Assembly (NCBI GenBank): GCA_009922615.1
Contig: RFVF01000008.1
Span: 1-64,000 of the forward strand
Reading direction: 5' to 3'
From: Pseudomonadota bacterium
Lineage (GTDB): Bacteria > Verrucomicrobiota > Verrucomicrobiia > Limisphaerales > SXTU01
DNA length: 64,000 nucleotides
Below, one piece after another: positions 2,880-9,437 of this stretch (within the stretch, counting starts at the first letter, position 1; the number at the start of each line of letters is the position of its first letter). Both the position numbers and the translations under genes were made by a program. The notes beneath the pieces are model-generated. The model saw only the letters and a list, made by a program, of their open reading frames with translations. It was not told where the DNA came from and made no database searches.

Positions 2880-4004
2880 AAACAGAACTGAGGCAGACGA
2901 AGTTTGCCGGCGGTGAAGTAGAGCCTGGCAATGAGGTGGGTGGTGGGGCGGTAGCCACGAGCCTTGCATTTGGTGGCGTTGAAGACCGGTGTTCAGCCCC
3001 TCCATGAAGGCGTTGCTCAGGCCCCACTTCCAGTGCGCCACTATCCCCTCCAGATGCCGCTCCACCAAGGTCCGCCACCTTCAACCATGGCGCGCAGCAG
3101 GTGCTTAGGCACCTTGCGGGCCGCCAAACGCACCCACCGGCACCACACGCGGAAGCGGTGCCGCACTATGCCCGCTGTGGGGCTGCGGTAAATGTCCTGC
3201 AACACCAGCCGCATCTGATACGCCTTGGCGGTGCGCAGACTTTTCGCCTCCAGGCCTGCCATCCGGGCCGTCTCCTGCTCCGTCAGGTGCTCCGGGTTCT
3301 TGCGCCACAGCCACTGGCTCTGGTGGAGCACCGCCCGCCCCCGGCGCACCCAGGCACACCTCGACCCGCCGCACTTGGTCCACCGCCGGGTTGACGTTCA
3401 TCACGACGTGGAACTTGTCGAACACCAACTGCGCGTTGCGGCAGGTTTCCTTCACCCCCTTGTGATACGCCGGGCTCATGTCCATGTTCACCTGCCTTAC
3501 CGCATGCCGATGGCCATTGTGGGTTTCGAGGGCCCTAATGAACTTGAGCCACACGCCATGGTTCTTGCCCTCCGTGGCGAAGAGCATCCGCCATAGCCGG
3601 GTATCCGTCTCGCCCACCAGCCCGGCCACCTGGCTCATGGGCATCGCGTGCATGAGCAGGAGTGCGAAGGCTTCGAACTCCTTGGGGAAGTGCGTGCTCA
3701 ACCCTTCCCAGGGCGGCCGCACCCGAAAGGCATGGCCGCACTGCCGACACTTGCCGCGGGGCAGGCGGCAGGTGATCGCACAGCGATGTTGGAAGACGTT
3801 GAGATGCCGCCAGGTGGGCGACTCGGTGTGGTCATAGCAAAAGACCTGGCCGGTGTCGTGCAGGCAGCGGACCGACTCCCTCAGTCGTGCGGTCTCGCGG
3901 ATCTCCAGCGACACAATCCCACTCTCCCGCTCGAACCGGCTCGCCACCACCTCCCAGTTCAAACCCAACCCCAACCACTCTTGGAACAGTTTCTCAGCCG
4001 TCAT
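2873..4004 (-). pseudogene. ISL3-family transposase, frameshifted remnant
   Basis: The first part reads from ATG at 4004 with an N-terminal zinc-finger-like region (CRLPRGKCRQCGHAF). The DDE domain start follows (VNMDMSPAYHKGVKETC, then LVFDKFHVV), typical of ISL3 transposases. Translation leaves frame near 3350, resumes in another frame as SQWLWRKNPEHLTEQE, shifts again near 3080 to give HWKWGLSNAFMEGLNT, and shifts a third time near 2990. There the family C-terminus (FNATKCKARGYRP, then AGKLRLP) is recovered up to a stop at 2873-2875. The total span fits an intact family member of about 375-400 aa, so nothing large is missing. At least three frameshifts mean it is not functional as written. 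Confidence 0.85.
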
Positions 4005-4025
4005 GCCCGCCGACTACCGTGCCTG

Positions 4026-4045
4026 CCACCGAAAACAGCGGAGAA
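4026..4045 (-). repeat. IS right terminal inverted repeat
   Basis: Reverse complement of the left end with two mismatches. It sits 22 bp upstream of the transposase start and directly precedes the first sulfatase codons. Confidence 0.8.
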
Positions 4046-4046
4046 C

Positions 4047-5087
4047 GACTTCCTCGACGCGAAGGCTCCCTCGCTGCAGCGTGCCTTCCAGCAGGCCGGT
4101 TATGCGACTGCTCACATTGGAAAATGGCACCTCGGCGGTGGGCGCGGTGTGGCGGACGCACCGAAGTTTGCGGCCTACGGCTACGATGTTGGACTGGGCA
4201 CTTACGAAAGTCCCGAGCCCGCCGCGCCGCTCGGCCTCAAGAACACGCCGTGGGGCACCAACCGCGAACCGCAACAAGTCGCGCGGCACGATCGCACGCG
4301 CTGGATGGTGGACGAGACGCTGGCCTTCGCAAAAAAATGCGGCGCGCAGCCGTGGTTCGTGAACCTTTGGTTTGATGACATCCACACACCGTATCGCCCG
4401 AGGGAAGGCAAGGACGAGCGGGGCTTGCCGGACCGGTATCGCGACGTGTTGATGGAGACGGACCGGCAAGTCGGCCGGTTGCTTGATGGCCTGCGCAAGC
4501 TGGGTGCCGAGACCAACACGCTCGTGCTGCTCTCCGGTGACAACGGTCCGGAGCCCTCGCTCAACCGCACGCGCGCCGGCGGCTTGCGCGGCATGAAGTG
4601 GAACCTCTACGAAGGCGGCATACGCACACCACTGGTCGCGCGCTGGCCGGGCGTGGTCGCCGTTGACCAGGTGAACTCCACGACCGTTGTGAGCGCCGTG
4701 GATTTCTTCCCGACCCTCTGCGCGTTGACGGGAGTGCCCGCGCCCGCCGGGGTAAAGTTCGATGGCGAGGATTTGTCCGGCGTGTTCAAGGGCGCGAAGA
4801 ACGCACGCACGCGCCCGTTGTTCTGGGAATACGGCCGCAAGCCCGCGCCGGAAGGCAAGGCCGGGCTCCGCGCGTTTCCGTATCCAAACGAGCTCGACGC
4901 GAAATCCCCGAACGTCGCCGTGCGCGACGGCGATTGGAAACTCCTCGTGAACGCGGACGGCTCGGGCGCAGAATTATTCCACCTCACCACTGATCCCAAT
5001 GAGGCGAAGAACGTGGCCGCAGAAAATGCGGCCGTGGCGCACCGGCTGACGACCGCAGCGCTGGCTTGGCGAAAGTCGCTCCCGTGA
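4047..5087 (+). pseudogene. Sulfatase, 5'-truncated at the IS junction
   Basis: The C-terminal part of a secreted arylsulfatase-type enzyme. Homology-like sequence begins exactly at the IS right end (DFLDAKAPSLQRAFQQAGYA) and continues through HIGKWHLGGG, LVLLSGDNGPE and MKWNLYEGGIRTPLVARWPG, all standard sulfatase blocks, to a normal C-terminus. The N-terminal signal peptide, the metal-binding DD pair and the CxPSR formylglycine sequon are absent, so no catalysis is possible. The missing 5' part is not on the other side of the IS, where the 21-bp array lies instead. It would once have hydrolysed sulfate esters of polysaccharides, a common verrucomicrobial trait. The frame stays open back into the IS (to 3648), but that part is IS sequence. 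Confidence 0.85.
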
Positions 5088-5188: not shown

Positions 5189-6121
5189 ATGGCTGACCAA
5201 ACCATCTACATCGCCGGACACCGTGGCCTGGCCGGCAGCGCACTGCTGCGGTGCTACGCGCAGCGGCCCGGCTGGCGCATCCTCACCCGCACGCACGCGG
5301 AACTGGAGCTGCGCGATCCCGTGGCCGTGCGAGCCTTCTTCCAGCAGGAACGCCCCACGCACGTCATCCTGGCCGCCGCCCGCGTCGGCGGCATCAAGGC
5401 CAACGCTTCCTCACAGGTCGAGTTCCTCCTCGACAACCTGCGCATCCAAAACAACGTCATCGAAGCCGCCGCCGACTTCGGCGTGGCAAAACTGCTCTTC
5501 CTCGGCAGCTCCTGCGTGTATCCCAAGCACGCCCCGCAACCGCTGCGGGAGGACGCCCTGCTCACCAGCCCGCTCGAGCCGACCAACGAAGGCTACGCGC
5601 TGGCCAAGATTTGCGGCCTCAAGCTCTGCGCCTACTACCGCCGCCAACAGGGCCGCAACTTCATCAGCGCCATGCCCACGAACCTTTACGGGCCGCACGA
5701 CAATTTCGATCTGGAGAAATCCCACGTGCTGCCCGCGCTGCTGCGGAAATTCCACGAGGCCAAAGTGTCACGCGCCCCGGCGGTCAAGTTGTGGGGCACC
5801 GGCAACCCGCGGCGCGAGTTCCTGCATGTGGACGATTTTGCGGCGGCCTGCGCCACGCTGATGGAGCGTTACGAATCCGACCAGCTCATCAACGTGGGTG
5901 TGGGCGAGGATGTGACCATCCGTGAGCTGGCGGAGTTGATCCGCGGGATCGTGGGCTACGCCGGCGACATCATCTGGGACACGGCCTTGCCCGACGGGAC
6001 GCCGCGCAAGCTCCTCGACGTGTCCCGCATCCACGCGCTCGGCTGGCAGGCGCGCATCCCGTTGGCAGCCGGCATCCGCAGCACCTACGACTGGTTTCTG
6101 GCCCACTCCGCGAAGCCGTAG
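5189..6121 (+). CDS. fcl: GDP-L-fucose synthase
   Basis: NADPH-dependent epimerase/reductase that makes GDP-L-fucose from GDP-4-keto-6-deoxy-D-mannose, for fucose-containing surface polysaccharides. It is an extended SDR protein of 310 aa, normal for the family. The Rossmann motif GHRGLAG is at residues 10-16, GSSCVYP at 106-112, and the catalytic pair Tyr136/Lys140 lies in YALAK. Other family blocks are NLYGPHDNFD and GTGNPRREFLHVDD. The upstream 100 bp carry an 8-bp inverted repeat (5132-5139 with 5169-5176) of unknown meaning. The usual partner gmd is not in the window. Confidence 0.95.
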   Translation: MADQTIYIAGHRGLAGSALLRCYAQRPGWRILTRTHAELELRDPVAVRAFFQQERPTHVILAAARVGGIKANASSQVEFLLDNLRIQNNVIEAAADFGVAKLLFLGSSCVYPKHAPQPLREDALLTSPLEPTNEGYALAKICGLKLCAYYRRQQGRNFISAMPTNLYGPHDNFDLEKSHVLPALLRKFHEAKVSRAPAVKLWGTGNPRREFLHVDDFAAACATLMERYESDQLINVGVGEDVTIRELAELIRGIVGYAGDIIWDTALPDGTPRKLLDVSRIHALGWQARIPLAAGIRSTYDWFLAHSAKP

Positions 6122-6202
6122 CCGGCGGAAGGTCCGCCCGGCTTCGGAGTTCGGGTTAATGGGAATTGAGACGGAATCGCGGGAGTTGTAGGACCGTGGG
6201 TT

Positions 6203-6229
6203 CTCTCCCCTCATCCGATGAAGGGAGAG
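6203..6229. repeat. Short hairpin downstream of fcl
   Basis: CTCTCCC at 6203-6209 pairs with GGGAGAG at 6223-6229. A smaller nested pairing (TCAT/ATGA) fills the loop. There is no T-run, so it is either a weak transcript end for fcl or a REP-like element. Apart from this and the possible attC remnant at 6308-6393, I see nothing in 6122-6387. Confidence 0.45.
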
Positions 6230-6307
6230 CACCTCGCGTGCGCAGAAGCGGAAGCTTCAGGTTCCTGCCCGATTCAAAGCCTTTACAGCAATGCGCCAAG
6301 CCGCTTT

Positions 6308-6393
6308 CCTAACCCCATGCTAACTCCCGCCCTTGCACACGTCAGCCGTGCACGAGCCCATGCACGCGGTGTCGCTCAATAACAATTTTAGGC
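6308..6393 (+). other. Possible degenerate upstream attC / cassette left boundary
   Basis: The right half (GGTGTCGCTC, then 9 nt, then TTTAGGC at 6387-6393) resembles the right half of the clear attC downstream (GGCTGTGGCTC, then 10 nt, then GTTAGGT). CCTAAC at 6308-6313 could serve as the left R box, and CGTGCA/TGCACG (6347-6352 with 6361-6366) forms an inner stem. The base before TTAGGC is T, not the G needed for integrase cleavage, and the L-box pairing is poor. I read it as a worn attC or a secondary insertion site at the cassette's left edge. Confidence 0.35.
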
Positions 6394-6976
6394 CAATCGA
6401 CTATATGCGACTATTGATTCTGCTCGTCCATTTTCTGGCGGTCGTCGGCGCCATTGCACAGGCCAACAATGCACCGCTCCCGAAGATTCTAATTATCTGC
6501 GACACAAACCAGGTCGGACCTCTCACTGTTATCCAAACCACCGCAGATTCATTCAAAGTAGACCTTGTGAAGCAACAATCGGTCATCACAAATCTTACGC
6601 TGATCTGCATGACAGCAAATCGTTTGAGCACGAAGGAGGAGCAGCACTCTGTGACGCTTGTATTGCACGGTGTCACCGCATACAAGCCGACCGATTCACC
6701 GGCAAGATACAGCCGGGATCAGAGTCTGCAGACCGTGATGTTCGAGGAGTTGTCAATCAGTCTCCTTAAGACCGAGTTGATCCAGTTCAACGGAGAAATT
6801 CTGTCCGCTGACAGTTTTTTGCGTAAAGTCCGGAGCATCCCAAAGAAAAGATGACCGGCTAACACTTCGGTCGAGCCAACAGCCTACGCCGTTTCGATTC
6901 GTTGTGAGTCTGGTTCTTTGATCGCAATGACGCCATTTCAAAGATCGGCTCGCCGGCTGTGGCTCACCTCTATCCG
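6388..6976 (+). mobile_element. Putative integron gene cassette (one ORF plus attC)
   Basis: The unit runs from TTAGGC at 6388, 11 nt before the ATG of a single small gene, to the cleavage G of the attC at 6976. A short leader, one ORF in the direction of the attC, and an attC starting a few bases after the stop are the standard build of an integron cassette. Base composition is visibly lower in GC than the surroundings. No integrase gene or attI is in the window, so this would be a lone or integrase-less cassette. It is inferred from structure only. Confidence 0.6.
6405..6854 (+). CDS. Cassette-borne hypothetical exported protein
   Basis: Not recognised. From the ATG at 6405 it is 149 aa with a clear signal peptide (MRLLILLVHFLAVVGAIAQA; cleavage probably after AQA), followed by a mature part of about 129 residues rich in Thr, Ser and Leu with no obvious motif and a basic tail (RSIPKKR). 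An in-frame ATG at 6333 would place the signal peptide inside the protein, so 6405 is preferred. It also lies just after the cassette boundary at 6388. Codon and base composition are clearly less GC-rich than the neighbours, which fits transfer. The stop codon is followed within 3 bases by the attC. Probably acts in the periplasm or outside the cell; function unknown. Confidence 0.6.
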   Translation: MRLLILLVHFLAVVGAIAQANNAPLPKILIICDTNQVGPLTVIQTTADSFKVDLVKQQSVITNLTLICMTANRLSTKEEQHSVTLVLHGVTAYKPTDSPARYSRDQSLQTVMFEELSISLLKTELIQFNGEILSADSFLRKVRSIPKKR

Positions 6977-6982
6977 TTAGGT
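6857..6982 (+). other. Integron-type attC recombination site
   Basis: CTAAC at 6859-6863 pairs with GTTAG at 6976-6980; the right core is GTTAGGT, matching GTTRRRY. GAGCC (6873-6877) pairs with GGCTC (6961-6965), and ACAGCC (6879-6884) pairs with GGCTGT (6955-6960), leaving one unpaired A at 6878 as the extrahelical base typical of attC. Unpaired central spacers are 9 nt (6864-6872) and 10 nt (6966-6975). The 70-nt terminal part has its own 6-bp stem (6916-6921 with 6938-6943). Total length of 126 bp is within the known attC range. Confidence 0.72.
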
Positions 6983-7005
6983 CCCTTTCAAGTTAGAGCC
7001 GCTGC

Positions 7006-9306
7006 TCACCGCTTCGGCCAGTTGAGGTGCTTGTGAAGGAAGTCGAAGGTGCCCTGGCCGTGGATGGTGTGCGGGCCGTCGAAGTGCTCGATCTCCGTGC
7101 GGTCGCCGATGCCGAGCTTGGTGTAGAAGCGGCGAATCTTCGCGAACTCGAAGTTCACCCACTCGTCAATCCCCACGCCGTCGTCGTGCCCGCGCTCGAC
7201 CATGAAGGGACGCGGCGCGATGAGCGCGGCCATCTCGGCGTAGTTGAAGGTGTGGCCGAGGTTCCACTCGAAGATTTCGTATTCGGGCGTGTAGAGGTAG
7301 CTGCCGCGCCAGTCCACGGTCGCGTTCTTCCAGACCCATTCGTTGAAGTCCGCCGAGCAGATGCTCAGGCAGTAGCCGTCGAGCGCCGCCGGGATGCGCA
7401 TGGCGGACTTGCCGCCGTAGCTCAGGCCGTAGAAGCCGATGCGCCGGGCGTCCACGAAGGGCTGCGTGCCGAGCCATTCGAGGATGCGCTCGTGCTGGGC
7501 GAAGATGACGGAGAACAAATGTTTGCCGAGCGGGTTGGCGAGGCGCTGGATGTTCCTGAACTCGTCCTTGCCGCGATACGGGTTGTGTGGCGCGAAGACG
7601 ATGAAGCCGCGCTCGGCGAGCCGCGTGGCGAAGCCCTTGTAGCTCTGCCATGCGCGGGATTTGTCATCGGTGGTCACGGTGTCCATCGGCACGCCTTCGA
7701 GGCCGTGCTGGCAGACGACGACGGGCCGGCGCTCGCCGGGCTTGAGGTCCTTGGGCAGCAGCAGAATTCCCCACGCAAACACGTCGGGCCAGACATCGAG
7801 CGTCACGTCGTAGCCGGTGAGCTTGTCGGTGTTGATGATTTCCTTGGAGCGCGCGTTCGTTGGCAGGCTGGCGGCGGGGAGCTTGCCGTTGACCTCGTTC
7901 CAAAAGCTATTCTGCCACGGTTTGCGCGCGGTGTCCCACGCGGCGGCATTGGGCGCTTTGGCCTTGGCCCAGAAGGATTCGTCGCGGTCGTAGGTGGCGA
8001 CGCGGAGGAGATTTTGCGTGAAGTTTTCGAGCTGCTTGACGGTGCGGCGCTGGCGGTCGTCCACGGAGAAATCTTTGCGCGCGTCGCCGAGCAGTGAGTC
8101 CGGCGGCGAGTCCACGCGGACCTTTAAGCCGACGGCGGCGAGAAGCTCTTCGAGCGCGGTGAGGGAGCCGGGGCCGGTGGTGGAACCTTCCGCGCCGTGG
8201 AGGAAGAGCGGGGCCTTGCCGGTTAGTTTGCCGGCGCGCGCGACTTCCGCTTCGACCGAGGCGAAGTCAGGCGTGGTCCATTTGCCCGGAGCCGCGCCGC
8301 CGGAACGACCGGGGCGCGCGACGGGCGGGCCGCTGAGCGTCGGGATCGGGCTGTGCTCGACGATGAGCGGGCGCGGATGGATGAGGCTGGCTAGCTCAGC
8401 GTCGCCGAATTCACGGAGCAAGCCGAAGACGTTGCGGTAAATGGGCTCCTTCCACAGCGCCTGCCGTGAGTCGAAGTAGCCGCTGACGAGCGCGGCGGAG
8501 ATGCGGGTATCGAGCGCGGCAGCGTGGAGAGCGAGCAGGCCGCCTTCGCCGTGTCCGGCGATGAGCAAGGGCGAATTCTCGGTCGTGAGCGTGTCGGCGA
8601 GCGCGAGGATTTTCTGCACTTCGTAGCCGATGACGGTGCGGCCCATCATGAAGGCCTGGCGGTAAATCCATTCCCGATGCGGCTGGTTGGTAAAGCGGAT
8701 GCGCGGATTGCCGGACCATTCGTCACGCCGGTCAACGAGCGTGGGAATGATCACGCGGCAGCCCGCCGCCGCGAGCGCGCGCGCCCACTGTGCGTTCGCC
8801 GACGTGCCGGGCGCGACGCCCGCGAGCTGCTCGGGCGTCTGGTCCGCGTCGGGCAACGCAATGACTTGGGCGCGGGGCGAGGACTTGGGTTCGAGCAGCA
8901 AGCCTTCGCCGGTCACGCCATCAAGCACGGGCCAGCGCACGGCGAAGACCTTGAACTGCGGTGTCTCGGCGAGGATTGCCGAGTCGCGGGTGGTGGCGAT
9001 GAATTCGAGCGCCTTGAACGGAATCCGCGGGTCCACCACGCCGAGGATTTTGGCGAGGTGCTGGCGATTGGGCTCGACGGACTTGGCGTAGGCTTCGGGC
9101 GAGGAGCGGTCACGCGCCCAGAGTTGGGCGCGCGCGGCGATGGAGTTTTCGGTTTCGCGCAGGAGGAACTTCTGGATGCCGGCGACCATTTGTTCCGAGA
9201 AATCCCCCTCGCGCGTGAGCGGCTGGGTGCCAGGCAGGGGCGCAGCTAACACGAGTGCGGTCGAGGCGGTGAAAAGGCCAAACGCAAAAATGAAGCGGGA
9301 ACACAT
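7006..9306 (-). CDS. Tandem alpha/beta hydrolase (acetyl-xylan-esterase/dienelactone-hydrolase-like)
   Basis: Predicted exported esterase or peptidase of 766 aa with two alpha/beta-hydrolase domains. The start at 9306 puts a signal peptide first (SRFIFAFGLFTASTALVLAA). The C-terminal domain has a complete triad layout: nucleophile Ser629 in GLSYGGKS, an acid in ERGHDDGV near 708 and a His in GPHTIHGQG near 746. The N-terminal domain shows GHGEGG at 251-256 where GxSxG is expected, so its nucleophile is missing. This is consistent with an inactive structural duplicate. Family members usually act on acetylated carbohydrates; the exact substrate is not readable. It faces the cassette tail to tail. 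Confidence 0.82.
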   Translation of the reverse strand: MCSRFIFAFGLFTASTALVLAAPLPGTQPLTREGDFSEQMVAGIQKFLLRETENSIAARAQLWARDRSSPEAYAKSVEPNRQHLAKILGVVDPRIPFKALEFIATTRDSAILAETPQFKVFAVRWPVLDGVTGEGLLLEPKSSPRAQVIALPDADQTPEQLAGVAPGTSANAQWARALAAAGCRVIIPTLVDRRDEWSGNPRIRFTNQPHREWIYRQAFMMGRTVIGYEVQKILALADTLTTENSPLLIAGHGEGGLLALHAAALDTRISAALVSGYFDSRQALWKEPIYRNVFGLLREFGDAELASLIHPRPLIVEHSPIPTLSGPPVARPGRSGGAAPGKWTTPDFASVEAEVARAGKLTGKAPLFLHGAEGSTTGPGSLTALEELLAAVGLKVRVDSPPDSLLGDARKDFSVDDRQRRTVKQLENFTQNLLRVATYDRDESFWAKAKAPNAAAWDTARKPWQNSFWNEVNGKLPAASLPTNARSKEIINTDKLTGYDVTLDVWPDVFAWGILLLPKDLKPGERRPVVVCQHGLEGVPMDTVTTDDKSRAWQSYKGFATRLAERGFIVFAPHNPYRGKDEFRNIQRLANPLGKHLFSVIFAQHERILEWLGTQPFVDARRIGFYGLSYGGKSAMRIPAALDGYCLSICSADFNEWVWKNATVDWRGSYLYTPEYEIFEWNLGHTFNYAEMAALIAPRPFMVERGHDDGVGIDEWVNFEFAKIRRFYTKLGIGDRTEIEHFDGPHTIHGQGTFDFLHKHLNWPKR

Positions 9307-9437
9307 GGAGGCAAAGTAGCTGGCGGGCGACGCGGCTGGCAAGAGCCCTTGACAACCCCTCGGGGCGGCTCGCACGATGCGCTCCGTTTGGCCTGTGTTT
9401 GCGGGTTGGTTGAGCGCTGGCCAGCCGGATGTTTTAT

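Follow-up and report, generated by a model that had tools for sequence, protein, structure and literature searches.

How does a single gene cassette come to lie in a chromosome with no integrase beside it? The question is raised by a 589-bp segment (6388-6976, plus strand) of a Limisphaerales genome, which runs from TTAGGC to the G of GTTAGGT and lies within the 64-kb stretch of DNA that we analysed, hereafter the window. The ends of the segment correspond to the attI and attC crossover points. A sequence-only reading of the window had called it a probable integron cassette with no integrase nearby, and had considered the attC site and the single gene, but neither the attI-type left boundary nor the recurrent small gene described below.

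The attC site spans 126 bp (6857-6982, plus strand), exactly the length given by the sequence-only reading. A check with a covariance model had been proposed there, and we built such a model (R1) from 18 aligned attCs of the same order, taken from intI-adjacent arrays and from other sites of the same genome; the window site was excluded from the training set, and the model is small and order-specific. Covariation supports the structure underlying R1, in which 96.8% of cells are paired and 51 cells changed on both sides compared with 17.2 in shuffles, figures that are descriptive as the structure was named from the same sequences. R1 scored the site at 34.0 bits (E 4.4e-6) and found no second attC in the window, where the next match reached 12.3 bits. 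On 136 kb of loci from the same genome R1 gave attC candidates 23 to 85 bits, and nothing in the background exceeded 13.2 bits. We consider this match strong evidence for an attC. Simple exact attC patterns gave no information, and there was no Rfam match at 6000-7200.

The geometry of the site points the same way. The R boxes pair CTAAC (inside GGCTAAC, 6857-6863) with the GTTAG of GTTAGGT (6976-6982) over five contiguous pairs, and the L boxes pair GAGCCA+CAGCC with GGCTG+TGGCTC, leaving one extra A on the 5' arm. The order is thus spacer 9, stem 6, bulge A, stem 5 and spacer 10, so that the paired boxes, the GTTAGGT end, the single unpaired A and the 9/10-nt spacers claimed earlier all stand; the split GAGCC+A+ACAGCC given there describes an identical structure in which the bulge is placed at the adjacent A. 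The attCs beside intI in the same genome and in its relatives share this frame, with the bulge on the same arm. A structural scan for paired R boxes, an inner stem and a one-base bulge on the 5' arm picked out no other site in the window, and this geometry occurred in none of 40 dinucleotide-shuffled 64-kb windows. Folding energy on its own is weak evidence for an attC: both strands folded better than shuffles, the bottom strand, whose fold had also been put forward for checking, with a z of -2.07 and the top strand with -2.26. These modest values and the lack of relatives of the ORF would suit a chance palindrome behind an orphan ORF with no integron involved, a view that is scarcely credible against the covariance score, the exact attC geometry, the IntI resident in the genome and the attI at the other end.

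The cassette carries one ORF of 149 aa (6405-6854, plus strand). As had been noticed, it starts 11 nt past the TTAGGC boundary (6388-6393) and is directed toward the attC, and its GC content is indeed low (49.6% compared with 64.1% for the window). The product was thought to be a signal-peptide protein of no assignable function. The first part remains a prediction, favoured by the look of the hydrophobic N-terminus (MRLLILLVHFLAVVGAIAQA, judged by eye) and by a helix at residues 2-21 in a single-sequence structure model whose overall fold is unusable (pLDDT 44). The second part is borne out, as the protein had no significant match in Pfam, NCBIfam or PHROG and no relatives in the genome contig collection, in 320 genomes of the order (its own excepted), in viral contigs or in plasmids. 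None of the genus's 10 other genomes carries the ORF either; the same ORF in relatives without the palindrome, which would have spoken against a cassette, was thus found neither in congeners nor in the 320 genomes of the order. No sigma-70-type promoter match was found in 6100-7050. Together with the covariance score and the IntI of this genome, the absence of the ORF from relatives supports the original cassette reading, and we regard the segment as a solid case of an integron gene cassette whose attC is real.

Where, then, is the integrase? The genome comprises 5.5 Mb on 331 contigs (assembly 92.6% complete), and no IntI match was found on the contig of the window (C299), which thus does not have the intI beside attI of a complete integron. 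The statement that no integrase is nearby therefore holds locally, but a search of the rest of the genome, also suggested at the outset, revealed an IntI gene on a different contig (C89:3229-4173). It is the only one above the family cut-off (TIGR02249, 438 bits against 265). Two attCs directly adjoin it and others lie on C322, C282, C288, C274, C276, C308, C10 and C111; besides the window site, at least 12 attCs are scattered over the genome. These genome-wide counts are lower bounds, as the prefilter of the search missed the window's own site. IntI above the cut-off was present in 65 of 196 sampled genomes of the order, and R1 found attCs in 10 of the 11 genomes of the genus. Integrons have already been reported for Verrucomicrobiota (PMC8618304).

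To the left of the cassette lies a GDP-fucose synthase-like NAD-dependent epimerase (5189-6121, plus strand; PF01370, 203 bits), with orthologues of 77-85% DNA identity in nine congeners, and to the right an alpha/beta-hydrolase-type protein (7006-9375, minus strand), with orthologues of 79-86% identity in nine congeners, where the cassette ORF is lacking. The neighbours of the hydrolase gene vary among the congener genomes. Both flanks thus have orthologues but no congener was seen joining them, and because the flanking genes are not adjacent there, a clean empty site is not demonstrable in the genus. Farther to the left, an interrupted ORF (3105-4004, minus strand) resembles by eye a remnant of an ISL3-type transposase beside or inside a sulfatase-like frame (3648-5087, plus strand).

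At the left boundary, spanning the start of the cassette, lies a 25-bp attI core, GTGTCGCTCAATAACAATT^TTAGGC (6369-6393, plus strand; GTGTCGCTCAATAACAATTTTAGGC), which differs at one position from a site in a related genome (G161:C223). The similarity is not confined to the core: window positions 6236-6394 are 78% identical to G161:C223:3109-3270, and 6237-6354 are also similar to G186:C461. In both of these heads attC-ended cassettes follow directly. In one integron of the genus (G105:C17) a near-identical core separates intI from the first cassette, and in another (G077:C237) such a core precedes intI, so that the window core has homology to sites in the position of an attI. In eight intI loci (L067, L070, L065, L068, L087, L088, L071 and L081) a weight matrix built from intI-less cores only gave its highest score in the locus, at least 11 bits, to the site upstream of intI; other intI loci have attI sites that it missed. 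The attI adjacent to the IntI gene on C89 has no match to the core and is of another type. We also compared the core by eye with attI1 of class 1 integrons, a 42-mer that occurs in at least 5000 plasmid records, and 18 of 25 core positions agree, GTCGC and TTAGGC included. The flanks are unrelated, however, and unlike attI1 the window has no G at the crossover. Indeed, the sole core difference to G161 is a T instead of G at the crossover base 6387, where the attI pattern reads G^TTRRRY. Judged from these letters, the site in the window represents an attI that has decayed, not one shown to function.

This bears on where the cassette was inserted. IntI might have used a secondary chromosomal site, the core match then being only a short preferred consensus, and off-target insertion is one of three proposed origins of CALINs, alongside intI loss and rearrangement (PMC8618304, citing Cury et al.). 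Yet a 25-bp match with one mismatch, set within 159 bp of 78% identity to cassette-bearing sites, far exceeds a short consensus, and we regard off-target insertion as very improbable. As the core is shared with intI-adjacent sites, the cassette lies in an attI-type site and not in a random target. The reading thus shifts from a cassette at some chromosomal position to a cassette on an integrase-less attI platform.

What takes the place of intI on this platform is a small gene. In G161:C223 a 42-aa ORF (MKADLRISVKDSKRGKNLKILLARTPFTPRQYFVTMNGAAWS) lies upstream of the core on the minus strand, opposite to the core; longer relatives in this family, which we call MKADLR, have about 65-73 aa. The window retains the 5' part of such a gene (6236-6310, minus strand), in which the start codon (6308-6310) is AGG and not ATG and one nucleotide is deleted; on account of these two lesions it is a remnant. 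Between it and the attI core lies an inverted repeat, GTGCAC-N7-TGCAC (6348-6365, read from the sequence), and most upstream regions of MKADLR genes likewise contain an inverted repeat of the TGCA type. Adjoining the platform, at 6203-6229, is a 27-bp sequence that is a dispersed short repeat, with about 20-30 matches listed each in G161 and G145.

We used the MKADLR protein profile alone in an independent scan of 84,980 species genomes, which returned 12 loci, all in Verrucomicrobia; the relatives that bear names come from MAGs of Limisphaerales and of other Verrucomicrobia. All six testable loci, that is those with a long gene and enough contig upstream, have attCs on the core side (L199, L200, L202, L203, L205 and L206, distinct loci from one scan). 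Each carries one to four attCs of at least 30 bits, 13 in total, which share the same side and the same strand and point away from the gene. At L201 and L204 contig ends cut near the core, and the four short copies of the scan have no attCs; for several further core-bearing MKADLR copies R1 recognised no attC within 1.5 kb. None of the 12 scanned loci has an intI in its flanks, and 29 intI loci yielded no MKADLR gene. Within the order the gene occurs in 23 of 320 genomes, and its distance to the core is near-constant in several families. Most or all of these genomes are draft MAGs in which contigs end near cassette repeats, so that at any single locus the lack of intI may be an assembly artefact, though several heads lie inside contigs, beside differing chromosomal genes. 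Loci named twice in our lists can be one contig (for example L199/L178/L212, L206/L159 and L203/L179/L213).

MKADLR genes differ at codon positions 1, 2 and 3 by 0.32, 0.20 and 0.55, a pattern of substitutions that shows constraint at the level of the protein. Some heads are themselves decaying, given the in-frame stops in L203 and L205 and the short gene in L206, and the genome of the window holds a second degenerate head with cassettes on C308 (L061:1388-1487). In many copies (L172, L173, L181, L182, L208 and L210) homology breaks off once about 17-24 codons have passed, which looks like truncation near a single point. The protein has no significant match in Pfam, NCBIfam, PHROG or PDB sequences and no relatives in viral contigs. 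It is basic and is modelled with four strands and a C-terminal helix (pLDDT 81), a model for which no significant structural match was found (best E 2.0). That it binds DNA at the GTGCAC inverted repeat is our guess. By eye, TTGACT-like and TATCAT-like boxes are seen in MKADLR upstream regions (for example L160, L174 and L204), ending about 6 nt before the start codon, which suggests a leaderless transcript beside the inverted repeat. Tyrosine recombinases other than IntI were noted near two heads: one at L160:729-1604, with 30% identity to IntI, and a 449-aa ORF at L204 (by eye), 573-1922 nt downstream of the MKADLR start.

Might the locus simply be an ordinary degraded integron, in which intI was deleted, one cassette was left and the same deletion brought an unrelated gene, the small one, next to the attI? 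Loss of intI does occur in the genus and the order. Seven sites (L136, L138, L187, L188, L196, L198 and L137) keep 86-245 bp of an intI-type attI, after which homology ends with no intI; L137 retains the first codons of intI, and at L136, L138 and L137 attCs follow within the examined stretch. These sites look like integrons that have lost intI. The window is different, as its upstream region resembles the MKADLR type and not the intI type. Moreover, the near-constant distance to the core, the protein-level constraint and the absence of the gene from the 29 intI loci argue against a neighbour acquired by chance. We therefore think a degraded ordinary integron unlikely.

Instead, we consider it highly probable that attI x attC recombination placed the cassette in a chromosomal attI without a neighbouring integrase, a platform of the MKADLR type; capture would have taken place in trans and been followed by decay. 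A cassette circle would have been integrated at the MKADLR-type attI by an IntI acting from another locus, which would have bound the attC as a folded bottom strand and the attI as double-stranded DNA, and joined the two at G^TT. The catalyst was most likely an IntI encoded elsewhere in the genome, either the C89 enzyme or a lost relative. Since the attI of C89 is of another type, the cognate enzyme may be a lost relative or may be missing from the assembly. Afterwards the MKADLR start codon and frame would have been lost, the crossover G of the attI changed to T, and one cassette left. With the small gene decayed and the crossover base changed, the cassette is probably frozen on its attI side.

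How does such a platform relate to known systems? It resembles a CALIN in that an attC-ended cassette stands without a nearby intI while an IntI is encoded elsewhere in the genome, but differs in its recognisable attI and in the conserved small gene that heads it, and its one attC falls short of the default of two in IntegronFinder 2 (PMC9024848). It has the attI core, attC type and cassette orientation of the sedentary chromosomal integrons of the same genus (G105:C17 and G077:C237), but lacks intI and carries an MKADLR-type gene in its position. In the IntegronFinder 2.0 survey CALINs and complete integrons are about equally common, and the tool has no attI detection outside class 1 (PMC9024848); platforms of this kind would therefore be reported only as CALINs. 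In the open-access literature we found no titles or abstracts on integrase-less attI platforms or on Limisphaerales integrons, and this recurrent kind of integron head, with a small gene in the usual position of intI, is apparently undescribed.

More tentatively, Limisphaerales may possess a second kind of integron head, composed of an MKADLR gene, an inverted repeat, an attI and cassettes and loaded in trans by an IntI encoded elsewhere, in which the MKADLR protein would be a dedicated partner controlling cassette capture or expression at such remote attI sites; we hold this extended view to be possible rather than probable. Over these chromosomes attI sites are dispersed; many have cassettes and no intI, and one class is headed by a conserved gene of its own. 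Such sites offer a concrete route for making CALINs and a candidate for a new integron-associated protein. If true, MKADLR heads loaded in trans would represent a fourth origin of CALINs beside the three already proposed.
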